64,000 bases of DNA from Hoeflea sp. (GTDB lineage Bacteria; Pseudomonadota; Alphaproteobacteria; Rhizobiales; Rhizobiaceae), in assembly GCF_030682515.1 (NCBI RefSeq), contig NZ_JAUXOD010000137.1, positions 1-64,000 on the forward strand. The letters are read 5' to 3'. The first letter of the stretch is position 1. Each line of letters begins with the position of its first letter. The notes beneath the pieces are model-generated. The model worked only from the letters and a program-made list of their open reading frames with translations. It was not told the origin of the DNA and did no database searches. The translations under genes were made by a program, and so were the position numbers. Positions 38,650-61,836 of this stretch are shown here, one piece after another.

Positions 38650-38652
38650 GGC

Positions 38653-39069: not shown

Positions 39070-39113
39070 GTGTCCTTGAACCTAATTTCAATGTGCATTC
39101 GGCTTTGGCATCA

Positions 39114-40742: not shown

Positions 40743-40743
40743 G

Positions 40744-42713: not shown

Positions 42714-42715
42714 GG

Positions 42716-43216: not shown

Positions 43217-43974
43217 GTTTCCCCTCCCGACAATGCGATCGCCTGCCCGGTCACCGAAGCGGCTGCATCGCTGCACAGCCAGATCACGGTTTCCGCGATT
43301 TCCTCTGGTTGAATGAACCGCCCCTGCGGATTGACATCCCGGAGCGAGGCCTCCGCCTCCGCCCGCGACCGTCCCGTCTTCTCGACGATGGTATCGATGG
43401 ACCGGTGCAGCATCGGCGTGTCCGTGAAGCCCGGACATATAGCATTGACCGTGACCCCTGTCTTGGCCAGCTCCTGCGCCAGGCTGCGCACCAGGCCGAT
43501 GACCCCGTGCTTGGCCGCGCAATAGGCGCTGACATAGCCGTAGCCCTTGAGCCCCGCCGTCGAGGCAATCGCGATCAGGCGCCCGGGCTGCTTTTGATTC
43601 ATTTTCGAAAGCCCGGCCTGGAACGTGTTGAAAACACCGATTAAATTGACATCGATCGTCGCCCGGAACATCTCCGCGTCGGTCCTGAGAAACGGCGCGC
43701 TCTCGGCCGACCCGGCATTGGCGATGACCAGCGTCGGCGTGCCGTGCGTCTCGATCGCCTGGGCGAGCGCCGCATCGAGCTGGGCCCGGTCGGTCACGTC
43801 GGCAGCCACCGCCATGATCCGGTCGTCACGCGCTGCAAGCGCCTGCAACGGCTCGAGACGCCGGCCGAGTGCGGTGACCCGGGCGCCCCTGGAAGCAAGC
43901 GCCAGCGCGATCGCCTCGCCTGCGCCGGACCCGGCGCCGGTGACGATCGCGTGATGCCCCATCAGCTCGCTCAT
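43213..43974 (-). CDS. Short-chain dehydrogenase/reductase
   Basis: The start ATG 43972-43974 follows AAGGTGTGACC and gives 253 residues. The NAD(P) motif is AIVTGAGSGAGEAIALALAS, the structural motif IANAGS, and the active site is IAIASTAGLKGYGYVSAYCA continuing to AKHGV (Ser, Tyr and Lys). It ends with [11 protein letters not shown] as usual. In this operon it is expected to oxidise the hydroxyacyl-CoA intermediate of the beta-oxidation-like part. It is placed two bases after the aminobenzoyl-CoA monooxygenase/reductase gene and overlaps the MarR gene. Confidence 0.95.
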   Translation of the reverse strand: MSELMGHHAIVTGAGSGAGEAIALALASRGARVTALGRRLEPLQALAARDDRIMAVAADVTDRAQLDAALAQAIETHGTPTLVIANAGSAESAPFLRTDAEMFRATIDVNLIGVFNTFQAGLSKMNQKQPGRLIAIASTAGLKGYGYVSAYCAAKHGVIGLVRSLAQELAKTGVTVNAICPGFTDTPMLHRSIDTIVEKTGRSRAEAEASLRDVNPQGRFIQPEEIAETVIWLCSDAAASVTGQAIALSGGET

Positions 43975-43976
43975 GG

Positions 43977-46420: not shown

Positions 46421-47581
46421 TCAGGCGCTGCGACGGCGGATCGTGCGAAGCGCCTCGGTCAGCCGGTCGACACCGTCTCGCGTGGTCATGAACCCCGGCG
46501 AACAGCGCAGCAGCGATCCCCGCGCGTCGGCAAACACCGAGCGGGCGCGCAGGCCGGCGAGAACCGCCTGCGGATCGACGCTCACGGGCAGCCGCATCAT
46601 CACGCTGCCGCCCCGCTCCGCCGGATCGCGCGGCGAGACCAGGGTCAGGCCCGCCTGGTCAGCGGCCGCGATGATAACCTCGCACAGCTCGCGGTTCTTC
46701 TTGAGCTCGGCGTTCCAGTCCTGCCGCGCATGCCATTCGAGCGCCGGCACCGAAGCTGCCGCGGCCATCACCGAGGGCGTGCCATTGTCGAAGCGACGGA
46801 TATCAGGCGCATAGGAAAACGCATTGATGTCCCAGGAGAAGATGTTGTCCTGGCTGAACCAGCCTCGAAGGCTCGGCTGGCAGCGGGCAATCACGTCCGG
46901 CATCACCTGCAGGATGCCGCCGCCAGGCGAGCCGCACATCCATTTGAGGCTGGTCGACACGGCGAAATCCGCGCCCACGGCGAGACAGTCATAATCGATC
47001 AGCCCCGCCGCCTGGGTGATGTCGACGCCGATCACCGAACCCTGGCTGCGGCCATGGGCCATCAGCCGCGCCAGGTCGCAGCGGTGCGACGAGGTGGAAC
47101 TCACCCATGTGAGAAGCGCAAGCCCGACTTCGGGTCCCCACGCGGAGATCACGTCCTGATCCTCGACCCAGGATGCGCCGTCGCGCAGCGGCACGGTGCG
47201 CAGCTCGAAGCCGTAGCGCTCTTCCATCCCGCTGAGCAGGAAATGCAGGCTCGGGAAGCAGTCCCCCGCCACCAGCACCACCCTGCCCTCGAGTTCGTCC
47301 CTCGGCAGCGCCATGATGATGGCCGCAAGCGATGTCGTCACGTTTTCCGTCGTCGTCAGCGATGCCGCCGGCGCCTTGAGAAGCTGGCTCCACAGCTCGA
47401 TGAAGCGCTGCCGCTGGCCCAGCGCATAGCCCCACTGCTCGTCATTGGGCGCGCCCCAGCATTCGGCGAAGGCGGTCAGCGCCCGGGCCATGTCCTGAGC
47501 CTTGCCGGGATATTGCCCGATCGAATGGTAGAGCATGTAACCCGAACCGTCGGTGTCCGGGTGGGTGGTCGTGTCGGCCAT
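46421..47581 (-). CDS. Kynureninase-like PLP-dependent enzyme (aminotransferase class V fold)
   Basis: The 386-residue protein follows the kynureninase plan: MLYHSIGQYPGKAQDMARAL at the start, TTTENVTTSLAAIIMALPRD near residue 78, the aspartate region SVIGVDITQAAGLIDYDCLA near residue 185 and the Schiff-base lysine in FAVSTSLKWMCGSPGGGI near residue 212, then RRFDNGTPSVMAAAAS. It differs strongly from KynU at 37456-38649, so it probably acts on another beta-keto or beta-hydroxy alpha-amino acid. It is last in the leftward operon of FAD oxidoreductase and peptide-type importer genes. Confidence 0.83.
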   Translation of the reverse strand: MADTTTHPDTDGSGYMLYHSIGQYPGKAQDMARALTAFAECWGAPNDEQWGYALGQRQRFIELWSQLLKAPAASLTTTENVTTSLAAIIMALPRDELEGRVVLVAGDCFPSLHFLLSGMEERYGFELRTVPLRDGASWVEDQDVISAWGPEVGLALLTWVSSTSSHRCDLARLMAHGRSQGSVIGVDITQAAGLIDYDCLAVGADFAVSTSLKWMCGSPGGGILQVMPDVIARCQPSLRGWFSQDNIFSWDINAFSYAPDIRRFDNGTPSVMAAAASVPALEWHARQDWNAELKKNRELCEVIIAAADQAGLTLVSPRDPAERGGSVMMRLPVSVDPQAVLAGLRARSVFADARGSLLRCSPGFMTTRDGVDRLTEALRTIRRRSA

Positions 47582-47643: not shown

Positions 47644-48462
47644 TCACCAGTTCGCCTGTCGCGGATCGGGCAGCGGAATGGCGTCGAGCAGTTCGCGTGT
47701 GTAGGCCGACTGCGGCGCTTCGAACAAGCGGTCGGCATCGGCGTATTCGACGATGTTCCCCCGCTGCAGCACCATCACACGATCGCACAACCGGCGGATC
47801 ACCGACAGGTCGTGGCTGATGAAGGCGAGCGTCAGGCCCAGTTCCTTGACGAGTCCGGCGAGCACATTGAGCACCTGCGCCTGCGAGGAGACGTCGAGGC
47901 CTGAAACGATCTCGTCGGCCAGGATGAATTCGGGCTTGAGCGCGATTGCCCGGGCGATGCCCACGCGCTGCCGCTGGCCGCCGGAGAGTTCATGCGGATA
48001 GCGCGTTCGGAACCCGCGCGGCAGGCCGACATGGTCGAGCGCGTCGTCGATGCGGCCGTCGATGCCGTCGAAGCCGTGCATCTGCATCGGGTCGGCGATG
48101 ATCGCGCCAACGCGCCGGCGCGGGTTGAGCGAGGACATCGGGTCCTGGAAGATCATCTGCATCCGCCGCCGGATCGGCCTGAGCGCGTCCTCGTTCAGAT
48201 GGGTGATGTCGCGGCCGTCGAACAGGATGGTTCCGGCCGTGGGCTCGATCAGCCTGAGCAGCGCGCGGCCCAGCGTCGACTTGCCCGAGCCAGAACCGCC
48301 GACGATGCCGAGCACCGAGCCGCGGGTGATGTCGAGATCGATGCCGTCGAGGATCGGAATCAGCGGCGCGCGGCCGAAGACCGGTTTTGCCGCCATGTCC
48401 GGCAGCGCCACTTCAAGAGCGCGCGCGGAGAACAGGATGTCCTTGCCCGGATTATCCGCCAT
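47644..48462 (-). CDS. Peptide/opine-type ABC transporter ATP-binding protein (DppF-like)
   Basis: The 272-residue ATPase contains Walker A (GIVGGSGSGKSTLGRALLRL), MQMIFQDPMSSLNPRRRVG (Q loop), the signature HELSGGQRQRVGIARAIALK and Walker B (PEFILADEIVSGLDVSSQAQ), in which the usual DEP reads DEI. It follows the first ATPase with an 11-bp overlap. It couples ATP hydrolysis to the two permeases of the operon. Oligopeptide-type systems of this class import dipeptides, opines, nickel or aromatic conjugates. Confidence 0.94.
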   Translation of the reverse strand: MADNPGKDILFSARALEVALPDMAAKPVFGRAPLIPILDGIDLDITRGSVLGIVGGSGSGKSTLGRALLRLIEPTAGTILFDGRDITHLNEDALRPIRRRMQMIFQDPMSSLNPRRRVGAIIADPMQMHGFDGIDGRIDDALDHVGLPRGFRTRYPHELSGGQRQRVGIARAIALKPEFILADEIVSGLDVSSQAQVLNVLAGLVKELGLTLAFISHDLSVIRRLCDRVMVLQRGNIVEYADADRLFEAPQSAYTRELLDAIPLPDPRQANW

Positions 48463-49330
48463 GACGCCACTCCCGGTCCGCCGCCAGAACTTCCGCCGCG
48501 ACGGCCTCGATCACCGCCTCGTCGACCGGCAGCAGCGATGCCTCCGGGTCGGTGTATTTCGGCGTCGCCGCGAGCAGCGCCCGCGAATAGGCATGTTTCG
48601 GCCCGTCGAAGAAATCGGCGACGGAGGAATTCTCGACGATCTTGCCGCCATAGAGCACCGAGAGCCGCTGGCAGACCTTCGAGACCACGCCGAGATCGTG
48701 GGTCACGAACACCATCGCGGTCGAATGCCGCGCCTGCAGTTCCCGGATAAGCCTCAGGATCTGCTTCTGCACGGTGACATCGAGCGCCGTGGTCGGTTCG
48801 TCGGCGACAACAAGCTTCGGATTGGCGGCAAACGCCGAGGCGATCAGCACGCGCTGGCGCATGCCGCCCGACAATTCATGCGGATAGCTCGCCATCACCC
48901 GTTCGGGATTGTCGATATGGACCTCGTTGAGCAGTTCGAGCGCGCGGACCCGGGCAGCGGACTTTGTCCAGCCGAGGATGTCGACCAGCCGGTTGGTGAT
49001 CTGCGGCTCGATCCGCCGCGACGGATTGAGCGCGGTCAGCGGGTCCTGCGGGATCAGCGCCGCCGTGGCCCCGATCAGCCGGCGCCGGTCGGCGGGCTTC
49101 ATCTTCTCGAGGTCCTGCCCGTCGAGCAGGATCTCGCCCTCGATGATGTCGACGGCCGAGGGAAGGATGCCGAGGATCGCCTTGCCGATCATGCTCTTGC
49201 CGGCGCCGCTCTCGCCCACCAGCCCCAGCACCTCGCCGGTGTCGATGGAAAACGACACCGAGCGCAGCACCCGCTGCTCGTAACCGTGCAAAGCGGCCGA
49301 GAGATTGTTGACGGTCAGGAACGCGGTCAT
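48452..49330 (-). CDS. Peptide/opine-type ABC transporter ATP-binding protein (DppD-like)
   Basis: The start ATG 49328-49330 overlaps the permease stop (ATGA) and gives 292 residues; the 384-residue track ORF extends into the permease gene. It has Walker A (GLVGESGAGKSMIGKAILGI), AALIPQDPLTALNPSRRIEP, the signature HELSGGMRQRVLIASAFAAN, Walker B (PKLVVADEPTTALDVTVQKQ) and the C-terminal DppD extension with KHAYSRALLAATPKY. It is the partner of the DppF-like ATPase. Confidence 0.94.
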   Translation of the reverse strand: MTAFLTVNNLSAALHGYEQRVLRSVSFSIDTGEVLGLVGESGAGKSMIGKAILGILPSAVDIIEGEILLDGQDLEKMKPADRRRLIGATAALIPQDPLTALNPSRRIEPQITNRLVDILGWTKSAARVRALELLNEVHIDNPERVMASYPHELSGGMRQRVLIASAFAANPKLVVADEPTTALDVTVQKQILRLIRELQARHSTAMVFVTHDLGVVSKVCQRLSVLYGGKIVENSSVADFFDGPKHAYSRALLAATPKYTDPEASLLPVDEAVIEAVAAEVLAADREWRHGG

Positions 49331-50178
49331 CTGAGCACCGGGTCGAAGCGGTCCTTGAGCCCTTCGCCGAACTGGCTGAAGGACAGGACGGTGAGGAACA
49401 GGACGCCCAATGGAAACGCCAGTACCCACCAGGCCTGGTGGATCGAGGTCCGGCCCTCGGCGATCATGCCGCCCCAGGTCGGCGCGTCGGTGGAGATCGA
49501 CAGGTTTACAAACGAAAGGATCGCCTCGACGATGACGGCGATGCCCATTTCGAGCGTCAAGAGTGCCACGATGGTGGGCAGCACGTTGGGCAGGATCTCC
49601 CGCCACAGGATATCGCGCCGCGGCCGTCCGGCGACGATGGCGCTTGAGACATAATCCATCGCCGATTGGTTCATCGCCTCGGCGCGCACCACCCGGCAGA
49701 ACCGTGTCCAGTCGATCACCACAATGGCGATGATGATCGAAGTGAGCCCGGTGCCCAGCACCGCGATCAGCAGGATGGCGAACAGAACGGGAGGAAACGC
49801 CATCCAGATCTCGACCAGCCGGGAAATCACCACGTCGACCCAGCCGCGCATGTAGCCCGCAAGCAATCCCAGCAGCGAGCCCACAAAGGCGGTCGCGAGC
49901 CCCGCGATGAGCGCCACGGAGAAGGCGATCCGCGCGCCATGCAGGATGCGCGTCAGCACGTCCCGGCCCAGGCTGTCGGTGCCGAGCAGAAAAGCGGGAT
50001 CGGCCCCGTCGAGCCAGAACGGCGGCAGCCGACCTGCGAACAGGTCCTGCGCCAGCGGATCATGCGGGCTGATCCAGGGCGCGAGCAGCGCCAGCACCGC
50101 CATGAGGCCGAGCCATGTGCCCGACAGCCACAGCCGCGCGCCGAGCTTCCGTTTCACGCTTCCGCGGCCATCAAGCAT
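49327..50178 (-). CDS. Peptide/opine-type ABC transporter permease (DppC-like)
   Basis: The 283-residue protein has about six membrane helices and the DppC motifs APWISPHDPLAQDLFAGRLP near the start, LLGTDSLGRDVLTRILHGAR near residue 64 and the EAA loop VVRAEAMNQSAMDYVSSAIV near residue 163 followed by GRPRRDILWREILPNVLPTI. It overlaps the DppB-like gene by 8 bp and the DppD-like gene by 4 bp. It forms the channel together with the DppB-like permease. Confidence 0.94.
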   Translation of the reverse strand: MLDGRGSVKRKLGARLWLSGTWLGLMAVLALLAPWISPHDPLAQDLFAGRLPPFWLDGADPAFLLGTDSLGRDVLTRILHGARIAFSVALIAGLATAFVGSLLGLLAGYMRGWVDVVISRLVEIWMAFPPVLFAILLIAVLGTGLTSIIIAIVVIDWTRFCRVVRAEAMNQSAMDYVSSAIVAGRPRRDILWREILPNVLPTIVALLTLEMGIAVIVEAILSFVNLSISTDAPTWGGMIAEGRTSIHQAWWVLAFPLGVLFLTVLSFSQFGEGLKDRFDPVLR

Positions 50179-51181
50179 GACGCAGCCTCGGGTTCAAAAG
50201 CGCGTACATCATGTCGACGGCCAGGTTGATGAGCGTGAACAGCAGCGCGAAGACGATGACGATCCCCTGGATCAGCGGCAGGTCACGGTTGATCACCGCG
50301 TCGATCGCCATGTTGCCCAAGCCTTCATAGGAGAACAGCCGCTCGATGATCACCGTGCCGCCGATCAGGAAGGTGAACTGCACGCCGATCAGCGTCAGCG
50401 TCGGCAGCACCGCATTGGGCAGCGCTTCCGACAGGATCACATGGTTCTCGCCATAGCCCTTGGTGCGCGACAGCGTCACGTAATCGAGATGCATGGTTTC
50501 CTTGAGCGACTGCTTGAGCAACTGGCTGATGATGGCGGCAAGCGGAATGGCAAGTGCCAACGCCGGCATGAACATGTGCTTGAGCAGGTCCCACCAGAGA
50601 TCGAACCTCAGCCGCGCGACGCTTTCGAACACGTAGAACTGGGTGACGAACGGCAGGTCGAGCGAGGGCGAGATGCGGCCGGAGATGTGGAACACCGGCA
50701 TCAGCACGCCAAACAGCACGATCAGGATCAGCGCCCAGAGGAAATCCGGGATCGACAGGCCGACGCCATTGGCGACGTCGACGGCGGTCTCGGTGCGGGT
50801 CTCGCGGTGCCGGACCCCGGTCAGCGCCAGCGCGCCGCCGAGCACGACCGCAATCACCAGGGCGAAAATGGCGAGCTCCAGCGTCGCCGGAAGGCGTCCC
50901 AGCACCAGCGGCATCACCGGTTGGCGCAGCGAGATCGAAGTGCCGAAATCTCCCTGCACGACACCGGTGAGCCAGATCCAGAACTGCTCGATGATCGACT
51001 TGTCGAGCCCGTAGAGCGCGGTCAGACGCGCGACATCGTCCTCGGTGGCGCCGGGCGGCAGCATCATGGCGATGGGGTTGCCCGGCACCACGCGGATGAC
51101 AAAGAACACCACCACCGCCGCCCCGATCAGGGTGACGGACATGGTCATCAGGCGGACAAGGATCGCGCGCAGCAGTTTCAA
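50171..51181 (-). CDS. Peptide/opine-type ABC transporter permease (DppB-like)
   Basis: I place the start at TTG 51179-51181, preceded by GCAGGAAATGATCA, giving 336 residues (TTG-KLLRAILVRLM); the track start at 51232 would lie in the intergenic hairpin. The DppB pattern is clear: IRVVPGNPIAMMLPPGATED near residue 35, a long periplasmic loop, and the EAA region YVTLSRTKGYGENHVILSEA near residue 230 followed by LPNAVLPTLTLIGVQ. About six helices are predicted. A hairpin lies directly before it. Confidence 0.92.
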   Translation of the reverse strand: MKLLRAILVRLMTMSVTLIGAAVVVFFVIRVVPGNPIAMMLPPGATEDDVARLTALYGLDKSIIEQFWIWLTGVVQGDFGTSISLRQPVMPLVLGRLPATLELAIFALVIAVVLGGALALTGVRHRETRTETAVDVANGVGLSIPDFLWALILIVLFGVLMPVFHISGRISPSLDLPFVTQFYVFESVARLRFDLWWDLLKHMFMPALALAIPLAAIISQLLKQSLKETMHLDYVTLSRTKGYGENHVILSEALPNAVLPTLTLIGVQFTFLIGGTVIIERLFSYEGLGNMAIDAVINRDLPLIQGIVIVFALLFTLINLAVDMMYALLNPRLRHA

Positions 51182-51197
51182 ATGATCATTTCCTGCA

Positions 51198-51227
51198 AAA
51201 GGGGCCGCCGCCCGAAGGCAGCGGCCC
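51198..51227 (-). terminator. Attenuator-like hairpin between binding-protein and permease genes
   Basis: On the minus strand GGGCCGCTGCC pairs with GGCGGCGGCCC over a TTCG-type loop (11 bp, one G-U pair) and is followed by CTTTTG. It lies within the 64-bp gap after the binding-protein stop. It may stop part of the transcripts, raising binding-protein levels over the permeases, or protect the upstream mRNA. Confidence 0.75.
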
Positions 51228-51245
51228 GTCAAGTCAGCCTGAGGC

Positions 51246-52778
51246 TTACGAAGCCCGCTTCATCAGATGCGGAAGCAGGGCGCCCGACGCATGCGGCGTC
51301 ACCGTCACGCCGGACGCATGCAGGATCGGCTGCACATATTGCAGCAGCGGGATCACCAGAGCGTTCTCGGCGATATACTTGTCCACCGCCTTCCAGCCGG
51401 CGATCCGCTTGTCCTCGTCCGCCTCGCCCCAGAGCGGGCCGATCATGTCGATGAGGTCCTGGCCGTCCCAGACCGAGTGCGGCGACGGGCCGAACATGGC
51501 GAAGCCGGTCGAGGTCGTCGGATCGCCCACGGAATTGCCCCAGTTGTAGAAGGCGGCGGGTGCCAACTGGTCGGCGCCGCGCAGTTCGAAATGCTTGGCG
51601 ATTTCGTAGACCTCGATTTCCGCCTCGATGCCGACATTGCGCCACAGGCCGACGATGGCCTGGATCATTTCATAATCCTTGGGCTTGAAGCCGCGCGTCG
51701 TCTGGATCTTGAACTTGACCGGGTTTTCCGGCGAGAAGCCCGAAGCCGCCAGCAGTTCCTTGGCCTTTTCCGGATCGTAGGGCACCGTGATCGAGGCGTC
51801 ATAGGCCGAGTATTCCGGCGTCTGCAGCGTGTCGATCGGGACGCCGTAACCCGACAGCAGCCGGTCGATGATCAGCTTCTTGTCGATCGACATCGCCGCC
51901 GCCATCCGCACGTTGGGATCGAGCATCACATCGATGTCGTTCAAGAAGATCATGCCGATGTCGGAGATCGGCGCGTCGGTGCCCATCACCTTGCCGCCGG
52001 CCTTGAGGCGGTCATATTCCTCATAGGGCATTTCGAGCGTGACATGCGAATTGCCGGATTCGATTTCGGCGACCCGGCTTGCCGCGTCGGTCACGAACTT
52101 GATGGTGACGGACTCGAAGTCCGGCTTGCCGCCCCAGTAGTTCGGGTTGGCCTTGAGCCGGACGAAGGCGTTGCGCTCGAACTTGTCGACCATGTAGGGG
52201 CCGGTGCCGATGGGCGCGGCCTCGAAGCCTTCGGCTCCGACCTTCTCGTAGTAGGCCTTGGGCAGCACGTAACCGGTGAGGAAGTACATCCATTTGAAGA
52301 TGGTCGGCTCGAAGCGGGCGACATCGGCGGTGACCGTGTTGCCTTCGGCCTTGATGTTGGCGAGCGTCGACCAGACGAACTGGATCGGGTTGCCGGTGGC
52401 CTCGTCGGCTGCGCGCGTCAGCGACCAGGCGACATCCTCGGCGGTAAACGGCGAGCCGTCATGCCAGGTCACGCCCTCGCGCACGGTCATCATCACCTTG
52501 GTCTTGTCGTCGTTCCAGCCCCATTCGGTGAGTAGGCCCGGCGCAGGCGACAGATCCGGCTGCTGCAGGATGAACTGGTCGAACACCGACTGGTAGATCC
52601 CCTGGATCGTCGGGTTGACGGCGGACGGGCCCACGGTCGGGTCCCAGGACGGCAGATTGACGTTGTAGGCGATGACGAGTTCGTCGATCGCCTGGGCAAA
52701 GGACGGCCCGGCAAAGGCGGCGAGCGCGAGAGCCGCCGTCGTGCCCTTGAGCACTGTGCGACGCGAAATATGTGTCAT
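51246..52778 (-). CDS. Peptide/opine-type ABC transporter substrate-binding protein (Tat-exported)
   Basis: The start is ATG 52776-52778 after GGGAGAACAGC, giving 510 residues. The leader has the twin-arginine motif SRRTVLKG followed by a hydrophobic stretch and AFAGPSFAQA, so export by the Tat system is likely. The mature part is an SBP_bac_5 protein: VREGVTWHDGSPFTAEDVAW near residue 100, GTGPYMVDKFERNAFVRLKA near residue 195, and PEKAKELLAASGFSPENPVK near residue 345. It is the receptor of the DppBCDF-like importer. The ligand is not known, but a catabolic context suggests an aromatic amino-acid derivative. Confidence 0.93.
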   Translation of the reverse strand: MTHISRRTVLKGTTAALALAAFAGPSFAQAIDELVIAYNVNLPSWDPTVGPSAVNPTIQGIYQSVFDQFILQQPDLSPAPGLLTEWGWNDDKTKVMMTVREGVTWHDGSPFTAEDVAWSLTRAADEATGNPIQFVWSTLANIKAEGNTVTADVARFEPTIFKWMYFLTGYVLPKAYYEKVGAEGFEAAPIGTGPYMVDKFERNAFVRLKANPNYWGGKPDFESVTIKFVTDAASRVAEIESGNSHVTLEMPYEEYDRLKAGGKVMGTDAPISDIGMIFLNDIDVMLDPNVRMAAAMSIDKKLIIDRLLSGYGVPIDTLQTPEYSAYDASITVPYDPEKAKELLAASGFSPENPVKFKIQTTRGFKPKDYEMIQAIVGLWRNVGIEAEIEVYEIAKHFELRGADQLAPAAFYNWGNSVGDPTTSTGFAMFGPSPHSVWDGQDLIDMIGPLWGEADEDKRIAGWKAVDKYIAENALVIPLLQYVQPILHASGVTVTPHASGALLPHLMKRAS

Positions 52779-52815
52779 GCTGTTCTCCCTGAGTTTAACT
52801 TCGTTGAGCTGAACT

Positions 52816-54390
52816 TCATTTGCCGCCCAGTTTCTGGGCAAGCATGTATCCCGCCCCCGCCCCGGTGCCCGCGCCGGGCCAGACGCTGGCGCCGGTGATG
52901 TGCAGGCCCTCGACAGGGGTCTTTCCCGTGGCGTGGCCGAGCGCCGGCCGGAACAGGAAATTCTGTGAAAGATGATGGCTTCCGGCCACCTGGTCGCCGC
53001 CGACGAGGTTCGGGTTGTCGGCCTCGAGATCGAGCGGAGACACCACCGCCCGGCCGAGGATCCTGGCTCTGAGGCCCGGGGCGTGGCGTTCGATCATGGC
53101 GATCGCCCGGTCGGCATAGATCTCCTTGACACTCGCCCAGTCGGTCCCGCTGATCGTGCCCGCGGCGTCGCCCTTGATCTCGCCCGGCACCATCCGCACC
53201 TGCACCCACAGCACATGCTTGCCCTCGGGCGCGCGGCTCGGGTCGATCGCCGTCGGCTGGCCCACAACCAGCACCGGCTCGTCGGGCAGAAGCCCCGCGA
53301 CCGCCTGCTGGTAGGTGCGCGCCATCTGCTCGAGCGAGGGGGCGATATGGACATAGGCGAAGCTCTTGAGCTCCTCGCCCGCGCTCCAGTCCGGCAGGCC
53401 GTCGAGCGCCAGGTGGATCATCATCGTGCCTGGCGCATGCGCAAATTTCGTCATCCTGGCGTCGAAGGCCGCGTCGCCAGAGGCGTTATCGAGCAGCTTC
53501 ATCAGGCCGCTGGGCGCAACATTGGCGATCACCGCGCGGCTTGCCTTGATCTTCGTGCCATCGGCGAGTTCGACGCCAGTCGCCTTGCCGCCCTTACGAA
53601 TGACACGCGCCACCCGCTTGCCGCAATGGACCTCGCCGCCGGAGGCCTTGATCTTAGACAGAAGCGCGGTAACCGCGGTGTCGGCGCCGCCCTTGCCGAT
53701 GACCATGCCGAAATTCTGGTTGGCCATGGATTCGAGATAGGGAAACACCGCGCCGCCGGCCATGTCGGGCGCGAAATCGAGATGCATGCCCCAGGCGGCG
53801 AGCGTCGCGCGCACATGATGGGACTCGAAGGTCTCCGTGAGCCATGTGCGCGGCGAGGACAAAAGCAGACGCACGAGATCCGCGGTCCAGGCAAAGCCCT
53901 TGCGCCACAGCGCCTTGGCCAGAAGCCGGCCCTGTATATGCATTTGCATGGGATTTCCGAGAAGCGCGAAGACATATTCGGCGGTGCCCGGAAACTCCGC
54001 GCAGAGCCGGTCCCACGCCTTGGCGTCGGCTTCGGAGAACTTTGCGATGCGGGCGCGGGTCTCCCCCGGCCCGGTGCTGACGCCGAGCCATGCTCCATCG
54101 TCGAAGACGCTGGCAAAGCAGTTCAAGGCCGGCGCAAAGTCGAGGCCGCGGCCGGCCAGATCTGCGCCATGGGCCTTGAAAAACCCGGAGCCGGCGAACA
54201 GGCTAAGGTTCATCGCCGCCCAGTCGTGGCGAAAGCCGGGCTCGGTCAGTTCGAGTGTCTTGACCGCGCCGCCAGGGGTTTCCGCCTGCTCGAAAATGCC
54301 GACGCGCCAGCCCTTCGCGCCCAGATGGACCGCGCAGGCCAGGCTGTTGATCCCAGCGCCGACAATGATCGCGTCATACTCGTCCTGCAC
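52816..54390 (-). CDS. FAD-dependent oxidoreductase of the phytoene desaturase/PYROXD2 type (paralogue A)
   Basis: The 524-residue protein starts with GTG (54390) and opens with DAIIVGAGINSLACAVHLGA followed by IFEQAETPGGAVKT, the FAD-binding pattern of the amine-oxidase/phytoene-desaturase fold, and closes with LHITGASVWPGAGTGAGAGY (C-terminal FAD contact). Central motifs include MVIGKGGADTAVTALLSKIK. It is first in the leftward operon, divergent from the cyclase-family gene, and shares its plan with the rightward gene at 55349-56926. It should oxidise C-C or C-N bonds; despite the family name, no carotenoid genes are present. Confidence 0.88.
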   Translation of the reverse strand: MQDEYDAIIVGAGINSLACAVHLGAKGWRVGIFEQAETPGGAVKTLELTEPGFRHDWAAMNLSLFAGSGFFKAHGADLAGRGLDFAPALNCFASVFDDGAWLGVSTGPGETRARIAKFSEADAKAWDRLCAEFPGTAEYVFALLGNPMQMHIQGRLLAKALWRKGFAWTADLVRLLLSSPRTWLTETFESHHVRATLAAWGMHLDFAPDMAGGAVFPYLESMANQNFGMVIGKGGADTAVTALLSKIKASGGEVHCGKRVARVIRKGGKATGVELADGTKIKASRAVIANVAPSGLMKLLDNASGDAAFDARMTKFAHAPGTMMIHLALDGLPDWSAGEELKSFAYVHIAPSLEQMARTYQQAVAGLLPDEPVLVVGQPTAIDPSRAPEGKHVLWVQVRMVPGEIKGDAAGTISGTDWASVKEIYADRAIAMIERHAPGLRARILGRAVVSPLDLEADNPNLVGGDQVAGSHHLSQNFLFRPALGHATGKTPVEGLHITGASVWPGAGTGAGAGYMLAQKLGGK

Positions 54391-54529
54391 CGCGCACAGT
54401 CCCCCGTTCGAGATTTATAATTGCAAATGCATATTATTCTGTCTAGCATCTATTTATCGCATTCACACAACCCGGAAACCGGGGCCACAACCCAGGTCGC
54501 GAACACGCCCGTCAGAGGAGGATCACTGC
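54391..54529. promoter_or_regulatory. Divergent promoter region of the two catabolic operons
   Basis: These 139 bp separate the leftward FAD oxidoreductase operon from the rightward cyclase operon. The centre (54411-54445) is strongly AT-rich for this genome and contains TATAAT (54416-54421) and overlapping dyads TTGCAA and ATGCAT, with TATTATT just after. A MarR regulator is encoded in the rightward operon, so this is the most likely operator region for joint control of all 13 genes. Confidence 0.6.
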
Positions 54530-55321
54530 ATGAACGCCACAGAAACTCTTGGTCATCTCGCTTCAATGCTGCTTGCAGGCAAGGTCGAGGTTGTCGACCT
54601 GTCGGGCTCGCTCGGCCCCGATACGCCGCTGCTCAAGCTGCCGCCGGACTTCGCCAAGGACACGCCCAAGATCGAGGTCCACAAGATTTCCGAATATGAC
54701 AGTGACGGTCCGTTCTGGGCCTGGAACTGGCTCAAGATCGGCGAGCATTCCGGCACCCATTTCGATGCGCCGCACCACTGGATCACCGGCAAGGACTATT
54801 CCGACGGCTACACGGACACGATCCCGCCGCAGAATTTCGTGGCGCCGGTCAATGTCATCGACTGCTCGGCCGAAGTCGCCAAGAACCCCGACTTCCTGCT
54901 CGACGCCGCCGGCGTCAAGGCCTGGGAAGCCAAGCACGGCGAGATCGAGCCGGGCGAATGGGTGGTGATGCGCACCGACTGGGACGCCCGCGCCACCGAC
55001 GAGGACGCCTATCTCAACGCCGATGAAACCGGCCCGCACTCGCCCGGACCGACCGTCGACTGCATCCAGTACATCCTGTCCAAGGGCGCCATCGGCTGGG
55101 GCACGCAGTGCATCGGCACCGATGCCGGCCAGGCCGGCGGCATGCAGCCGCCCTTCCCGGCGCACAATCTCCTGCACGCCGCCAACAAATACGGCCTCGC
55201 CTCGCTCGCCAATCTGAGCAAGCTGCCGCCCAAGGGCGCGGTCCTGATCGCCGCTCCGCTGAAACTGGTGAATGGCACGGGAAGCCCGATCCGCGCCATG
55301 GCCCTGGTCGCCCGCGGCTGA
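54530..55321 (+). CDS. Cyclase family metal-dependent hydrolase (kynurenine formamidase/isatin hydrolase fold)
   Basis: The start ATG 54530 follows AGAGGAGGATCACTGC and gives 263 residues. The metal motif is GEHSGTHFDAPHHWITGKDY near residue 70, the HxGTHxDxPxH signature of PF04199, and VMRTDWDARATDE and GTDAGQAGG further on complete the pattern. The family includes KynB formamidase, isatin hydrolase and other Mn/Zn amidohydrolases. At 263 residues it is longer than typical KynB (about 210). As no other formamidase is visible, it could fill the missing kynB step, or open a lactam or cyclic imide. It heads the rightward operon. Confidence 0.85.
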   Translation: MNATETLGHLASMLLAGKVEVVDLSGSLGPDTPLLKLPPDFAKDTPKIEVHKISEYDSDGPFWAWNWLKIGEHSGTHFDAPHHWITGKDYSDGYTDTIPPQNFVAPVNVIDCSAEVAKNPDFLLDAAGVKAWEAKHGEIEPGEWVVMRTDWDARATDEDAYLNADETGPHSPGPTVDCIQYILSKGAIGWGTQCIGTDAGQAGGMQPPFPAHNLLHAANKYGLASLANLSKLPPKGAVLIAAPLKLVNGTGSPIRAMALVARG

Positions 55322-55348: not shown

Positions 55349-56926
55349 ATGGCGGATTATGACCACATCATTGTGGGCAGCGGGATCAATGCGCTCGTTG
55401 CCGCTGCAACGCTTTCCAGGAAGGGAAAGCGCGTGCTGGTGCTCGAGCGCGAGGACCGGTTCGGCGGCTGCATGCGCACCGACGACATCACGCTTCCGGG
55501 CTTTCATCACGACGTGATGGCGGCGACCTTCGTTCTGTTCCTCACCTCCCCTGCCCATGCCGCGCTCGGAGCCGATCTGGCGCGGCATGGGCTCGAATTC
55601 TGCCACACGCCGCATCCGACCGCGGTGCTGAGGCCCGACGGCTCGTCGCTGGTGCTGACCACCGACCGGGCGGTCAACATCAAGGCTTTCAATGCCGCGG
55701 CCCCGGGCGACGGCGACCGCCACGGCGCCGATGTGGGCGCGATCGAGGCCGATGCGCCTTTCCTGTTCGCGCTGCTGGGCGGCGAACTCTGGAGCTGGTC
55801 GACCGCCAAACTGCTTGCTGGCCAGGCCTGGAAGCGCGGGGCCCGCGGGCTTGCCGCCTGGATGGGAGAGGCCCTGCGCCCGACCCGCGCCTGGCTCGAA
55901 AGCTCCTATTCCTCCGGTCTCGTCCAGGCGCTGTGGGCGCCCTGGGCGCTGCACACCGGCCTGACCGTCGAATCCGCCTATGGCGCGCAGATGGGCAAGG
56001 TCATCGCCTTTGCGCTCGAGGCCGCCGGCGCGCCGGTGATCAAGGGCGGCGCAAGCCGGGCAGTCGACGCCTTCAGGGCGCTGATCGAGGAGAACGGCGG
56101 CGAGTTGCGCGCGGGCGCCGATGTCGACCGGATCCTCCTTGCCAATGGCCGCGCCTCGGGCGTGCGCCTTGCCGACGGAACCGAGATCAAGGCCGCCCAT
56201 GTCATCTGTTCGGTCGCTCCGGGCCAGCTCCACGGCCGCCTGCTCCGTGACCACCAGAATCCCGCTTCGAGTACCCAGGCCGAAGATCTGCGCCAGTTCC
56301 GCCACGGCCGCGGCAATTTCCAGCTGCACTACGCGATTGACGGCCCGATCCGCTGGAAGACCGCGGGCCTCGAGGACGTGGCGTTGATCCACCTGGCCGA
56401 CAGCATCGATTCCGTCTCGAAGTCCTCGAACGAAGCCGAGCGCGGCCTGCTGCCCGAGACCCCCACCATCTGCGTGGGCCAGCCGCACCGGCTTGACCCG
56501 ACCCGCTGCCCGGACGGCAAGTCGATCCTCTGGCTGCAGATCCCCGATGCGCCGCGCCGGCTCAAGGGTGACGCGGCGGGCGCGATCGAGACAGACGGCG
56601 CCTGGACCGAAGCCGTCCGCGAAGCCTTCGCCGACCGCATCGAGGCGATCCTCGCGCGCCACATCGAGGGCTTCGCCGACAGCGTTCTGGCGCGAAAAGC
56701 CTATTCGCCCGCGGATCTCGAAACCATGAACATCAACCTGGTTGGCGGCGATCCCTATGGCGGATCCTGCGCGCTCGACCAGTTCTTCATCTGGCGTCCG
56801 TTTTCGGGCAGCAGGAACCACGCGACCCAGATCGAGAACCTGCACCACATCGGCGCCTCGACCCATCCCGGCCCGGGCCTGGGCGGCGGGTCGGGCTTCC
56901 TGCTGGCCAGGAGGCTGGGCGGATGA
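55349..56926 (+). CDS. FAD-dependent oxidoreductase of the phytoene desaturase/PYROXD2 type (paralogue B)
   Basis: The 525-residue protein begins with DHIIVGSGINALVAAATLSR followed by VLEREDRFGGCMRTDD and ends with LHHIGASTHPGPGLGGGSGF, the same N- and C-terminal FAD contacts as the paralogue at 52816-54390, and has AAGAPVIKGGASRAVDAFRA in the centre. It lies 27 bp after the cyclase gene and overlaps the MarR gene by 4 bp. Two related flavoproteins flanking one promoter region suggest successive oxidations of one substrate, or the two halves of a heteromeric enzyme. Confidence 0.88.
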   Translation: MADYDHIIVGSGINALVAAATLSRKGKRVLVLEREDRFGGCMRTDDITLPGFHHDVMAATFVLFLTSPAHAALGADLARHGLEFCHTPHPTAVLRPDGSSLVLTTDRAVNIKAFNAAAPGDGDRHGADVGAIEADAPFLFALLGGELWSWSTAKLLAGQAWKRGARGLAAWMGEALRPTRAWLESSYSSGLVQALWAPWALHTGLTVESAYGAQMGKVIAFALEAAGAPVIKGGASRAVDAFRALIEENGGELRAGADVDRILLANGRASGVRLADGTEIKAAHVICSVAPGQLHGRLLRDHQNPASSTQAEDLRQFRHGRGNFQLHYAIDGPIRWKTAGLEDVALIHLADSIDSVSKSSNEAERGLLPETPTICVGQPHRLDPTRCPDGKSILWLQIPDAPRRLKGDAAGAIETDGAWTEAVREAFADRIEAILARHIEGFADSVLARKAYSPADLETMNINLVGGDPYGGSCALDQFFIWRPFSGSRNHATQIENLHHIGASTHPGPGLGGGSGFLLARRLGG

Positions 56927-57414
56927 ACGACATCAAGCCGCCCGCCACGGACCGATCGGAGCCCTTCCAGCGGCTGGGCGAGATCGGCCTGTCGAACTTC
57001 GCCCCCTATCTCATGAACCGGCTGATGGGCCGCTACAACGCCGATCTCAGGCAGGAGATGGCCGGCCTCGGCCTCACCACGCCGAAGATGCGCACGCTCG
57101 CGGTGCTGTCGGTGATCGACGCGCTGCCGATCTCCGAACTGGCCGTCTACGCAGTGGTCGAGCAGTCGACACTCAGCCGTGCGCTCGAACAGCTCGCGAC
57201 CGACGGCCTCGTCCGTCGCGAGCCCGACGCCAATGACAGCCGCGTCACCCGCGTCGTCATCACCGATACCGGCCGCGCGGCCTTCGACCAGTTGTGGCCG
57301 ACCATGGCGCGGATCTATTCGCAGATGTTCAACGGCATCCCGGATGAGGAACGCGCCGCCTTCGTCGAGACGCTCAGGAAAATGCTCCACAACATCCGCA
57401 AGCACGACTTCTAA
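56923..57414 (+). CDS. MarR family transcriptional regulator of the divergent catabolic locus
   Basis: The 163-residue protein overlaps the FAD oxidoreductase stop (ATGA). Its winged helix-turn-helix is seen in GLTTPKMRTLAVLSVIDALP, LAVYAVVEQSTLSRALEQLA (recognition helix) and REPDANDSRVTRVVITDTG (wing). It probably binds the 54391-54529 region and perhaps the AT-rich gap after its own gene. The effector is likely the substrate or first intermediate of the pathway. Confidence 0.93.
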   Translation: MNDIKPPATDRSEPFQRLGEIGLSNFAPYLMNRLMGRYNADLRQEMAGLGLTTPKMRTLAVLSVIDALPISELAVYAVVEQSTLSRALEQLATDGLVRREPDANDSRVTRVVITDTGRAAFDQLWPTMARIYSQMFNGIPDEERAAFVETLRKMLHNIRKHDF

Positions 57415-57475
57415 GCCTCTGATTAAATGAAAAATAATACACGTGAACCCCGAATTTCAACCTGAGGACAAGACC

Positions 57476-58072
57476 ATGAAGCATCTCCTTCTCGCCGCAA
57501 CCGCATGTGCCATGGCCCTCGGGGTCGCGGGCGTTCACGCCGACACGCTTCCGGGCGTCAAGGGCATCAATCACATCGGGCTCACGGTTCCCGACATCGC
57601 CGAGGCCGAGGCCTTCTTCACCGATGTCCTGGGGTGCGAGAAGGCAACCTCGTTCGGTCCCTTCCGCGACGACACGGGCACCTTCATGCAGGACCTGCTC
57701 GACGTCGATCCGCGCGCGGTGGTCAACCAGATCACGCTGATGCGCTGCGGCTTCGGCAGCAACATCGAGCTGTTCTCCTACGACGCGCCTGGCCAGGAAA
57801 CCGTCCGGCCGAAGAACAGCGATATCGGCGGCCACCACATCGCCTTCTATGTCGAAGACATCGACGCGGCTGCCACCTATTTCAAGGACAAGGGCATCCG
57901 CACGCTGATGGGCCCCTTCCCGGTCAATGAAGGGCCGGCCGCGGGCCAGGCGATCATCTATTTCTTCGCGCCCTGGGGCCTGCAGATGGAGGCCATCTCC
58001 TTCCCCACCGGCATGGCTTACGAGAAAGACGGCGGACCGGTTCTCTGGTCCAACACCGACCCGGCCAAGTAG
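57476..58072 (+). CDS. Secreted VOC-family (glyoxalase-like) protein
   Basis: I start at ATG 57476 after TGAGGACAAGACC, giving 198 residues. The first 22 residues (MKHLLLAATACAMALGVAGV plus HA) are a signal peptide cleaved before DTLPG, so the protein is periplasmic, unusual for the VOC superfamily. The mature part has two beta-alpha-beta modules: INHIGLTVPDIAEAEAFFTD and HHIAFYVEDIDAAATYFKDK, with His in each and Glu (QMEAI) as likely metal ligands. A periplasmic dioxygenase, hydrolase or isomerase acting before uptake, or a binding protein, is possible. It lies 61 bp after the MarR gene and 32 bp before the iorA-like gene. Confidence 0.87.
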   Translation: MKHLLLAATACAMALGVAGVHADTLPGVKGINHIGLTVPDIAEAEAFFTDVLGCEKATSFGPFRDDTGTFMQDLLDVDPRAVVNQITLMRCGFGSNIELFSYDAPGQETVRPKNSDIGGHHIAFYVEDIDAAATYFKDKGIRTLMGPFPVNEGPAAGQAIIYFFAPWGLQMEAISFPTGMAYEKDGGPVLWSNTDPAK

Positions 58073-58104: not shown

Positions 58105-60252
58105 ATGGCTGAACGCTCATTCGCCAAGGAAGTCCGGAAGCTCAAGCTCGGTGAAGGCGACACCTTCACCGGCGAGGGCATTCTGGCATTGACGAAGGCG
58201 CTTCTGGAAGCGGGCGTCGGCTATGTCGGCGGCTACCAGGGCGCACCCATCAGCCATCTGATGGACGTACTCGCCGACGCCGAGGAGATCCTGACCGAAC
58301 TTGGCGTGCGCTACGAGGCCAATGCGTCCGAAGCCGCCGCGGCAGCGATGCTCGCGGCCTCGGTGCATTACCCGATCCGCGGTGCGGTCACCTTCAAGGG
58401 ACCGGTCGGCGTCAACGTGGCCTCCGACGCGCTTGCCAACCTGTCGTCCTCGGGCGTCACCGGCGGCGCGCTCGTGATCATCGGCGAGGATTACGGCGAA
58501 GGCTCCTCGATCATGCAGGAGCGCAGCCATGCCTTTGCGATGAAGTCGCAGATGTGGCTGCTCGATCCCCGGCCCAACCTGCCCTCCATCGTCAAGTCCG
58601 TGCACCAGGGTTTTGAGCTCTCGGAAGCCAGCAACACGCCGGTGATGCTGATGGTCCGGATCCGCTCCTGTCACGTCACCGGCAGCTTCGCGGCGAAGGA
58701 CAACAAGCGCCCGCCGTTTACCGTCAGGGACGCACTCGCCAATCCGCGCAGCGACTACGCGCGCGTCGTGCTGCCGCCGATGTCCTATCTGCAGGAACAC
58801 GACAAGATCAACAACCGCTGGCCGGCGGCGCTTACCTACATTCGCGAGCACAAGCTCAACGAGGTCTTCGGGCCGAGCGAGGCCCCGGTCGGCATCGTGC
58901 TTCAGGGCGGCATGTACAATGGCGTGATCCGGGCGCTGCAGCGATTGGGCCTCGCCGACATCCACGGCGACACCGAGATCCCGCTCTACGTGCTCAACGT
59001 CACCTACCCGCTTGTCCCCGACGAGTTCTTCGCGTTCTGCGAAGGCAAGTCTGCGGTGCTGGTGGTCGAGGAAGGCCAGCCGGAATTCATCGAGCAGTCG
59101 CTCGGACTGGCGCTCTACAAGGCCGGAAGCTCGATTGCGCTTCACGGCAAGGACATGCTGCCGATGGCGGGCGAATACACCGGCCAGGTCATGCTCGACG
59201 GCCTCGAGGCGTTCCTGAAGAAGGCCGCGCCCGAGCTGCTGCCTGCCCGGCTGCGCGCCCCCAATTCCGATCACAAGCCGGCGCTGCCGGACCTGTCCAG
59301 GACCGTGCCGATGCGCCCGCCGGGCTTCTGCACCGGCTGTCCGGAGCGGCCGATTTTTGCCGCCATCAAACTGACCGAGATGGAACGCGGCAGGCACCAG
59401 ATCGCGGGCGACATCGGCTGCCACCTGTTTGCCACCCTGCCCCCATTCGAGATCGGCGGCTCGACCATGGGCTACGGCCTGGGGCCGGCATCGAACGCCG
59501 CCTTCGACGGCGGCGGCGACAAGCGCTCGATCTCGATCCTGGGCGATGGCGGCTTCTGGCACAACGGCCTGTCGTCCTCGATCGGCAACGCGGTCTACAA
59601 CAAGTCCGACGGCGTCATCGTCATCGTCGACAATTTCTATTCCGCCGCCACCGGCGGCCAGGACATCCTCTCCTCGCGCGCCGACAATGCGTCCAAGGCC
59701 ACCGGCCACCCGATCGCCGACGCGGTCAAGGGCGTGGGCGTCAAGTGGGTCCGCCAGCTCGACCGCACCTATGATGTGCCGAAGATGCGCGAGATCCTGA
59801 ACGAGGCGCTGACCACCGATCATGTCGGCCCCAAGGTCATCATCGCCTCGTCGGAATGCATGCTCAACAAGCAGCGCCGCGAGAAGCCGCTGATGGCCAA
59901 GGCGATCAAGGAAGGCAGGCGGGTCGAAAAGCCGCGCTTCGGCGTCGACGAGGACATCTGCACCGGCGACCACGCCTGCATCCGCCTTTCGGGGTGCCCG
60001 TCGCTTTCCTTGAAGAAGCTCGACGATCCGCTCCGCGACGATCCGGTCGCCAGCATCGACCAGAGCTGCGTCGGCTGCGGCAATTGCGGCGAGGTGGCCG
60101 ACGCGGCCGTACTCTGCCCGTCCTTCTACCGCGCCGACGTGGTGCACAATCCCGGCTGGGCCGAGCGCAAGTTCGGCGCGCTGAGGCACCGCATCATCAC
60201 CTGGTTGCAGACCCGCCGCTCCAGCGGCCGCCTTGAATTCGTCCGGACCTGA
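58105..60252 (+). CDS. Indolepyruvate ferredoxin oxidoreductase alpha-like subunit
   Basis: The 715-residue protein has an N-terminal pyrimidine-binding region (ITEGILALTKALLEAG-like start, YVGGYQGAPISHLMDVLADA, YEANASEAAAAAMLAASVHY), the IorA marker PGFCTGCPERPIFAAIK near residue 407, and a ThDP motif (SILGDGGFWHNGLSSSIGNA with VIVDN) near residue 480. The C-terminus carries iron-sulfur ligands CTGDHACIRLSGCPS and CVGCGNCGEVADAAVLCP near residues 618 and 654. Such enzymes convert aryl-pyruvates to aryl-acetyl-CoA and CO2, passing electrons to ferredoxin. It forms the complex with the following gene. Confidence 0.92.
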   Translation: MAERSFAKEVRKLKLGEGDTFTGEGILALTKALLEAGVGYVGGYQGAPISHLMDVLADAEEILTELGVRYEANASEAAAAAMLAASVHYPIRGAVTFKGPVGVNVASDALANLSSSGVTGGALVIIGEDYGEGSSIMQERSHAFAMKSQMWLLDPRPNLPSIVKSVHQGFELSEASNTPVMLMVRIRSCHVTGSFAAKDNKRPPFTVRDALANPRSDYARVVLPPMSYLQEHDKINNRWPAALTYIREHKLNEVFGPSEAPVGIVLQGGMYNGVIRALQRLGLADIHGDTEIPLYVLNVTYPLVPDEFFAFCEGKSAVLVVEEGQPEFIEQSLGLALYKAGSSIALHGKDMLPMAGEYTGQVMLDGLEAFLKKAAPELLPARLRAPNSDHKPALPDLSRTVPMRPPGFCTGCPERPIFAAIKLTEMERGRHQIAGDIGCHLFATLPPFEIGGSTMGYGLGPASNAAFDGGGDKRSISILGDGGFWHNGLSSSIGNAVYNKSDGVIVIVDNFYSAATGGQDILSSRADNASKATGHPIADAVKGVGVKWVRQLDRTYDVPKMREILNEALTTDHVGPKVIIASSECMLNKQRREKPLMAKAIKEGRRVEKPRFGVDEDICTGDHACIRLSGCPSLSLKKLDDPLRDDPVASIDQSCVGCGNCGEVADAAVLCPSFYRADVVHNPGWAERKFGALRHRIITWLQTRRSSGRLEFVRT

Positions 60253-60255
60253 AGA

Positions 60256-61836
60256 ATGGCAAGCATGACCCACTCCGCCTTCACCCCCAAGCCTCAGGAT
60301 CCGGCGCTTGACCAGATCATCAAGCTCGCCATCATGGCAGTCGGCGGCCAGGGCGGCGGCGTGCTCACCAACTGGGTCGAGGACTGCGCCCGTTCCAACG
60401 GCTACGCCGTGCAGGCCACCTCCGTGGCCGGCGTCGCCCAGCGCACCGGCGCCACGATCTACTACATGGAAATGGCGCCCCTGCGGGATCGCGCGCCGGT
60501 GTTCTCGCTGCTGCCGGCGGCGGGCGATGTCGACATCCTGGTGGCGGCCGAGATGATGGAGGCCGGACGCGCCATCATGCGCGGCTTCGTCACCCCCGAC
60601 CGCACCACGCTGATCGCCTCCTCCCACCGGGCGCTGGCGGTGTCCGAAAAGATGGTCCCCGGAGATGGCATCGCCGATTCCCAGGAAGTCATCGCGGCCG
60701 CCGAAATCGCCGCCCGGCGCTTCATCGCCTTCGACATGGAGAAGATGGCGATCGATGCCGGCTCGATGATCTCGGCAAGCCTGTTCGGCGCGCTCGCCGG
60801 CTCCGGCGCGCTGCCCTTCGACCGGTCGAGTTTCGAGGCCGCCATCAAGGCCTCGGGGCGCGGCGTCGAGGCAAGCCTCAGGGCCTTTGCCGCGGGCTTC
60901 GAGGCCGCGGCCAACGGCACGGTCGAAACGCCGCGCTCAGGGCGGATCAAAACCGTGGCCGGCGCGCCCTCGGGCCCCAAACCGCTTGTCGACCGCTGGA
61001 ATGCCCTTGCCGCGCGCGCGACGGCCCTGCCCGACCCCGTGCGCGACATGGCGCTCACAGGCTTGCGCGCGGTGGTCGATTTCCAGGACCTTGACTACGG
61101 CCGCGACTACCTCGACCGGGTCGAAAAGGTGCTGGCGGAAGACGATCCGGCCAAGGGCCATGAACTGACGCTCGAGGCCGCCAAATACATCGCCAAGGCG
61201 ATGGCCTATGACGATGTCTTCCGCGTGGCCGACCTCAAGACCCGCGGCAGCCGCTTTGCCCGCGTGCGCGGCGAGATTGCCCCGGCCAAGGGCGCGCAGA
61301 TGAAACTCACCGAATTCATGCACCCGCGCGCCGAAGAGGTGGTCGGCATGATGCCAGCGCGTCTCGGCCGCAGGCTTTCGGCGAGCGAACGCGCCATGCG
61401 GCTGATCGACCGGCTGGTCAACAAGGGCCGCCGGTTGCGCACCGACCGGCTTTTGCCTTTCGCCCAGCTCTACGTGCTGGGCGGCCTGCGCAAGTATCGG
61501 CGCGGCACGCTACGCCATGCCATCGAGACGCAGCATCTGGAAGACTGGCTTGCCCAGGCGCTTGCCTATCGCCGGATCGACTACGCGCTGGGCGTCGAAA
61601 CCCTGCGCAACCGCCGCCTGGTCAAGGGCTACTCCGATACCCATGCGCGCGGCCTGTCCAAGTTCGACCGCGTGATGGACGGCGTGGCGCTTCTGGCCGG
61701 CCGCGACGACGCCGCCCACTGGTGCCGGCTGTTGCGCGAGGCGGCGCTTGCCGACGAGAAGGGCGAGCAGCTGGAAGGCGCGCTCAAGACCGTCCGCTCC
61801 TTTGCGAGCCAGGCCGAGACAGCCCTTCCGAACTGA
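60256..61836 (+). CDS. Indolepyruvate oxidoreductase beta-like subunit with C-terminal extension
   Basis: The 526-residue protein starts three bases after the alpha subunit stop. Residues 15-220 are the gamma/beta-type domain of 2-oxoacid oxidoreductases (LAIMAVGGQGGGVLTNWVED, VQATSVAGVAQRTGATIYYM). The remaining 300 residues form a helical extension (region of DUF6537 type) with RGEIAPAKGAQMKLTEFMHP, found in the proteobacterial version and absent from the archaeal IorB of about 200 residues. The extension may handle electron transfer or assembly. It ends the rightward operon. Confidence 0.92.
   Translation: MASMTHSAFTPKPQDPALDQIIKLAIMAVGGQGGGVLTNWVEDCARSNGYAVQATSVAGVAQRTGATIYYMEMAPLRDRAPVFSLLPAAGDVDILVAAEMMEAGRAIMRGFVTPDRTTLIASSHRALAVSEKMVPGDGIADSQEVIAAAEIAARRFIAFDMEKMAIDAGSMISASLFGALAGSGALPFDRSSFEAAIKASGRGVEASLRAFAAGFEAAANGTVETPRSGRIKTVAGAPSGPKPLVDRWNALAARATALPDPVRDMALTGLRAVVDFQDLDYGRDYLDRVEKVLAEDDPAKGHELTLEAAKYIAKAMAYDDVFRVADLKTRGSRFARVRGEIAPAKGAQMKLTEFMHPRAEEVVGMMPARLGRRLSASERAMRLIDRLVNKGRRLRTDRLLPFAQLYVLGGLRKYRRGTLRHAIETQHLEDWLAQALAYRRIDYALGVETLRNRRLVKGYSDTHARGLSKFDRVMDGVALLAGRDDAAHWCRLLREAALADEKGEQLEGALKTVRSFASQAETALPN

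Follow-up and report, generated by a model that had tools for sequence, protein, structure and literature searches.

Several described proteins can be compared with the VOC protein encoded at 57476-58072 in the window, which is the whole 64,000-nucleotide stretch of Hoeflea sp. DNA analysed here. E. coli GlxI (1f9z) and SMU.1112c/YaeR (3l7t) have the same two-module fold, with H/E/H/E on strands 1, 4, 1' and 4', but the window protein is apparently exported, shows only about 19-24% identity to them, and is found in an indole-catabolism context instead of one concerned with methylglyoxal. Methylmalonyl-CoA epimerase has a Gln as its second ligand. This enzyme (3rmu, 6qh4) is the best PDB match by sequence profile, with an E value of 1.3e-10, but the window protein has a Glu as second ligand and is apparently exported, so that a CoA substrate is unlikely. 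The VOC aryl dioxygenases (9u42, 6on3) have the fold and the aromatic-catabolism context in common with it, but the identity is 17-23% and the window protein has a four-ligand set. Cytoplasmic VOC relatives, for example L073-L087 and L022 from Arthrobacter, share the mature domain with 41-53% identity and all four ligand positions, but have no signal peptide and lie in other neighbourhoods. Some cytoplasmic relatives (L022, L023, L029 and L030) are located at or near genes for 2-oxoacid dehydrogenase complexes, which may hint at the type of substrate. In the distant relatives L060 and L061 (genome G404) the VOC domain is fused behind an N-terminal domain resembling quinol monooxygenase (ABM), and at L032 a quinol monooxygenase gene is found just upstream of the VOC gene.

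The gene neighbourhood resembles the iad auxin-degradation loci of Variovorax, Bradyrhizobium and Ruegeria, which also contain a MarR gene, an isatin hydrolase/kynurenine-formamidase-like gene and iorAB (iadAB), and for which an isatin-to-anthranilate route is described (PMC9613470, PMC12633357). No VOC protein is mentioned in the main text of these two papers. The window differs by having no IadDE Rieske pair, the only Ring_hydroxyl_A match of the genome being on another contig (C43), and its MarR protein is closer to 3cjn than to 7kfo, the IadR of V. paradoxus that binds IAA.

Gene organisation around the VOC gene

The VOC gene belongs to an operon with the order isatin hydrolase B-like, CrtI-like FAD oxidoreductase, MarR, VOC, IorA, IorB, and its position between the MarR gene and the IOR genes is thus as an earlier note on this DNA had placed it. 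The features of the locus are:

36617-46274, minus strand: tryptophan/kynurenine and 2-aminobenzoyl-CoA pathway genes (NCBIfam/Pfam and reading of the sequence)
47644-51232, minus strand: Opp/Dpp-type importer, two permeases and two ATPases
51246-52841, minus strand: family 5 solute-binding protein (SBP) with the Tat-like signal MTHISRRTVLK (Pfam SBP_bac_5; sequence)
52816-54390, minus strand: CrtI/CrtO-like FAD oxidoreductase (FADox1), heading the divergent importer operon (Pfam, NCBIfam)
54417-54446, plus strand: operator/promoter-like element ATAATTGCAAATGCATATTATTCTGTCTAG, conserved across orthologous loci and across families
54530-55321, plus strand: isatin hydrolase B orthologue (4j0n_A, 460.6 bits over 262/263 residues; Pfam Cyclase)
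55349-56926, plus strand: CrtI/CrtO-like FAD oxidoreductase (FADox2; Pfam, NCBIfam)
56923-57414, plus strand: MarR regulator (solved relatives: 3cjn nearest, 7kym next)
57476-58072, plus strand: VOC protein precursor, 198 aa (ORF; Pfam Glyoxalase_4/Glyoxalase; orthologues)
58105-60252, plus strand: IorA-like 2-oxoacid:ferredoxin oxidoreductase subunit (TIGR03336, 271 bits, below the 650.9 cut-off; Pfam TPP_enzyme_C)
60256-61836, plus strand: IorB-like subunit with DUF6537 (NF006179, over cut-off)

The isatin hydrolase is homologous to 4j0n over its full length (1-262), and the HxxxDxxxH-type motif GTHFDAPHH is present in its translation. Since the IorA-like subunit scores so far under the canonical TIGR03336 cut-off, its substrate need not be indolepyruvate. 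Among the pathway genes, TDO, kynureninase, a benzoate-CoA-ligase-like protein, enoyl-CoA hydratase and an aryl-CoA hydroxylase/reductase were assigned by NCBIfam/Pfam, and an acyl-CoA dehydrogenase, a MarR protein and an SDR by reading of the sequence. By their predicted functions the isatin hydrolase, IorAB and the 2-aminobenzoyl-CoA genes point to isatin/indole catabolism, a pathway to which the earlier note gave no name. A second, divergent kynureninase-like class V aminotransferase with no NCBIfam match is encoded at 46421-47581, flanked by the importer genes and the aryl-CoA hydroxylase gene. The SBP orthologue of L020 also has a Tat-like signal (SRRQTLG, corresponding to SRRTVLK in the window).

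The VOC operon has the same gene order in Rhizobiaceae, Paracoccaceae, Roseobacteraceae and others, and there is a second architecture, found at several loci, in which the VOC gene directly follows an importer ATPase gene and precedes the aryl-CoA hydroxylase. The conserved element is located in the divergent promoter region between FADox1 and the isatin hydrolase gene, with the layout ATAATTGCAAATGCAT-N8-GTCTAG-like, that is the palindrome-like TTGCAAATGCAT plus GTCTAG, and it is the sole match in the genome at up to 2 mismatches. It is probably a MarR operator with a promoter. A promoter belonging to the VOC gene itself was rejected, since the gap between marR and the VOC gene differs in length and sequence among the orthologues and has no common element.

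The export signal and its evolution

The reading frame of the VOC gene starts with ATG at 57476 and ends with a stop codon at 58070-58072, in exact agreement with the positions in the earlier note. Two features at its 5' end are of importance for the location of the product:

57464-57468, plus strand: GAGGA as ribosome-binding site, seven bases 5' of the ATG of the VOC gene (sequence)
57476-57541, plus strand: Sec signal peptide (residues 1-22), with cleavage predicted between VHA and DT (22/23) (sequence; orthologues; rule test)

In the N-terminus, MKHLLLAATACAMALGVAGVHA followed by DT, a basic n-region precedes a hydrophobic core and an A-x-A-like site, and this arrangement is conserved in the orthologues. 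The protein was also considered as a lipoprotein, which was rejected as C11 is without a proper lipobox and is not conserved.

A scan of the genome collection for VOC orthologues gave 24 loci, and a signal peptide is found at the start of all 19 alphaproteobacterial orthologues among them, which have an overall identity of 57-97%. Their N-termini are hardly alike and the mature domain is strongly conserved, indicating that selection maintains the signal and that it is no artefact of the start codon. Our own signal rule, which asks for a basic n-region, an uncharged hydrophobic core and a small-x-small site, was passed by 30 of the 32 Sec-exported members and by none of the 23 cytoplasmic relatives; the background, in 775 ORFs of neighbouring loci, is 12%. 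It is highly improbable that the start is misannotated and the protein cytoplasmic. An internal M13 exists, and within the clade L072 and L074 are cytoplasmic, but the ribosome-binding site precedes the first ATG, neither M13 nor the in-frame GTG at 57443 has a site comparable to GAGGA, and signals are kept in about 30 orthologues with differing N-termini; a start at M13 was therefore rejected. The clear signal peptide described in the earlier note is thus borne out, and the periplasmic location that it proposed is strongly supported by the comparison of orthologues, the tree and the rule test.

A maximum-likelihood tree with midpoint rooting was made from 59 VOC domains, 32 with Sec signals, two with Tat signals, two signal-less and 23 cytoplasmic. 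The exported domains (Sec and Tat) and the two signal-less ones make up one side of a branch with a support of 100/100, with the 23 cytoplasmic domains outside. The direction of change follows from the cytoplasmic relatives being on both sides of the midpoint root; the exported clade appears to be nested within a cytoplasmic VOC family, and the simplest history would be that export was gained once and afterwards lost once. The loss concerns L072 and L074, which are found in the same kind of cluster with the gene still directly after the importer ATPase, and where no signal peptide displaced by a frameshift was seen in the three frames upstream. Their branch is long (0.53), indicating that the protein changed once it stayed inside. 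The actinobacterial relative L021 (9341-10528) has two fused VOC domains and a Tat-type signal, SRRDFLAK, in place of the Sec signal. Judged from these comparisons, Sec export of the VOC protein as an evolved trait is strongly supported.

That VOC proteins are nearly always cytoplasmic, as had been stated earlier, is broadly right but not absolute, since the same genome encodes a second VOC protein (L113, G000 C48:113764) in a 354-residue frame of CatE-like length, with the Tat-like signal MTRRAALNFLAAAPVLASA. Exported VOC proteins are rare, not unique; full-text literature searches on exported VOC proteins gave nothing relevant. There is no new superfamily here, and what is new is a VOC clade that is exported and has a constant partner in catabolism. 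Such a stable clade, with intact metal-ligand positions and its partner importer fixed, represents a change of compartment, and the natural Sec, Tat and secondarily cytoplasmic members make it possible to test what location contributes.

Fold and metal-ligand positions

Two Pfam families match the protein above their cut-offs, Glyoxalase_4 (E 9e-14) and Glyoxalase (E 2.4e-11), and the Glyoxalase match extends from residue 30 to 172. AlphaFold models of medium confidence (pLDDT 73-75) have the topology beta-alpha-beta-beta-beta twice, with strand 2 of module 2 not assigned in the second model. The two modules and the Pfam Glyoxalase match place the protein in the VOC superfamily, and the two-module domain of the earlier note is thereby upheld. 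Foldseek matches of the model include E. coli Ni-glyoxalase I (1f9z, E 1.9e-8), SMU.1112c, 9u42, 6on3, TnmS1 (5umq) and FosX. Two narrower assignments were rejected by score, a YaeR-type glyoxalase I (NF050075, 40 bits with a cut-off of 140) and methylmalonyl-CoA epimerase (TIGR03081, 41 bits with a cut-off of 114.95).

Four codons, each for a residue invariant in 59/59 domains, correspond to metal-ligand positions:

57572-57574, plus strand: H33, position 1, strand 1 of module 1
57767-57769, plus strand: E98, position 2, strand 4 of module 1
57836-57838, plus strand: H121, position 3, edge of strand 1 of module 2
57989-57991, plus strand: E172, position 4, strand 4 of module 2

In the model the four residues are predicted to be located on strands 1, 4, 1' and 4' or at their edges, and we take their positions to be the metal-ligand positions of glyoxalase I (GlxI). 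Their invariance favours a metalloenzyme over a binder. G153 and Q158 do not vary within the exported clade or in the two members of it that were internalised, and Q158 is present in only 7 of the 23 cytoplasmic relatives; the pattern of Q158 suggests, as a hint, a clade-specific pocket or a shared substrate.

An oxygen-using function can be imagined, in which a periplasmic ring-cleaving enzyme of extradiol type removes indoxyl- or dihydroxyindole-like compounds before indigoid dyes are formed. The homogentisate dioxygenase 9u42 and the L-DOPA dioxygenase 6on3 are among the top fold matches, and an indole monooxygenase gene adjoins the VOC gene in some clusters (L020, L069). However, the fourth ligand position is always occupied by E98, a position that type I extradiol enzymes are not known to use, and among the 39 genomes with an IorA orthologue (see below) the VOC gene is not significantly associated with indole monooxygenase (4/13 vs 4/26, p 0.40, relatedness ignored). 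We regard such an enzyme as unlikely.

Co-occurrence with the importer and a possible function

Among 101 Rhizobiaceae genomes, nearly all of different genera, 39 have an IorA orthologue, 31 an isatin hydrolase of the IHb type, 24 the SBP and 13 the cluster VOC, in 11 genomes exported and in two cytoplasmic. The sets are nested, with the IorA genomes containing the SBP genomes and these in turn containing the VOC genomes, and all IHb genomes have IorA. Within the IorA genomes the VOC gene is found in 13/24 with the SBP and in 0/15 without it (Fisher p 3.6e-4, relatedness ignored). In the remaining 26/39 the operon is otherwise the same, with nothing in the place of the VOC gene. The nesting and the VOC-less operons indicate that the protein is an accessory tied to the importer; an obligatory core step was rejected, as two thirds of the related loci have neither the gene nor a replacement.

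The earlier suggestion that the protein may bind the substrate, or act on it ahead of import, agrees with its restriction to genomes with the importer SBP and with the gene following the importer ATPase directly in several loci, and of its two alternatives the ligand positions favour the metalloenzyme. A periplasmic binding or escort protein would hold an indole-type ligand, with a metal or none, and pass it to the importer or buffer a toxic compound with no catalysis, as TnmS1 does with an antibiotic. TnmS1 is among the top fold matches, and presence only with the importer, together with dispensability, is what a helper would show, but the four ligand positions are invariant also in the cytoplasmic members, and for binding alone there would be no need to retain both Glu residues; a role as binder is somewhat unlikely. 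The protein could also be a periplasmic detoxifier of a reactive dicarbonyl or an off-pathway compound that is merely co-regulated with the cluster. The glyoxalase I fold and ligand set and the accessory distribution would fit this, but the gene is tightly linked to the cluster in distant families, and the periplasm is not known to have glutathione, the usual thiol partner; a detoxifier is quite improbable.

The preferred reading, to which we give almost an even chance, is a periplasmic, Sec-exported and metal-dependent VOC enzyme acting on the vicinal-dioxygen indole-type substrate of the importer; the metal, catalysis, substrate and reaction are what we infer. A protein outside the inner membrane that is present only with one importer most likely meets the ligand of that importer, and from the pathway genes this ligand would be converted to isatin. 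Isatin, dioxindole and 2-hydroxyindolin-3-one have neighbouring oxygens, the pattern held by VOC metal sites, and dioxindole and hydroxyindolinone interconvert via an enediol; for these reasons a proton-transfer enzyme is proposed. Beside the family-5 SBP/ABC importer the enzyme would convert or pre-process an extracellular isatin/dioxindole-type indole with vicinal oxygens, most likely by proton transfer via a metal-bound enediolate, as in glyoxalase I and methylmalonyl-CoA epimerase, for example by racemisation of dioxindole or by conversion of 2-hydroxyindolin-3-one to dioxindole. This particular reaction, as racemase or ketol isomerase on a dioxindole/hydroxyindolinone-type compound, is considerably more doubtful than the general reading. 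The product would be imported and oxidised to isatin by the CrtI-like FAD enzymes or other oxidases, isatin would be hydrolysed to isatinate by the isatin hydrolase, and IorAB would carry out an oxidative decarboxylation of isatinate, of which 2-aminobenzoyl-CoA may be the direct product.

Two results count against this preferred explanation. The VOC gene is missing from most IorA operons, so the step is dispensable or spontaneous, and loss of the signal in L072 and L074, at the same position in the cluster, means that the reaction need not be periplasmic; either the step is also possible inside the cell, or the substrate has changed there. A fuller history, that the clade left the cytoplasm once, that isomerisation or racemisation of oxidised indoles of the dioxindole/isatin type in the periplasm feeds a dedicated ABC importer, and that one lineage later returned to the cytoplasm, is a tentative proposal that we hold to be rather less than probable. 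If true, a step of indole catabolism is carried out beyond the inner membrane.

Phenylglyoxylate oxidoreductase offers an analogy for IorAB (58105-61836), which may be an isatinate (2-aminophenylglyoxylate, a 2-oxoacid):ferredoxin oxidoreductase giving 2-aminobenzoyl-CoA. A review from 2018 left open whether indole is in fact degraded via isatin (PMC6221969). The cluster bears on this question, as an isatin hydrolase, an IorAB-type oxidoreductase and a 2-aminobenzoyl-CoA route are combined in it, and outside the cluster the genome has an indole monooxygenase. The latter is encoded on another contig (L124, G000 C66:1899-5618) together with an SDR, a flavin reductase and an AraC regulator, likely an indole-oxidation set, and is 70% identical to the L069 enzyme, for which the nearest PDB entry is 7z4x.
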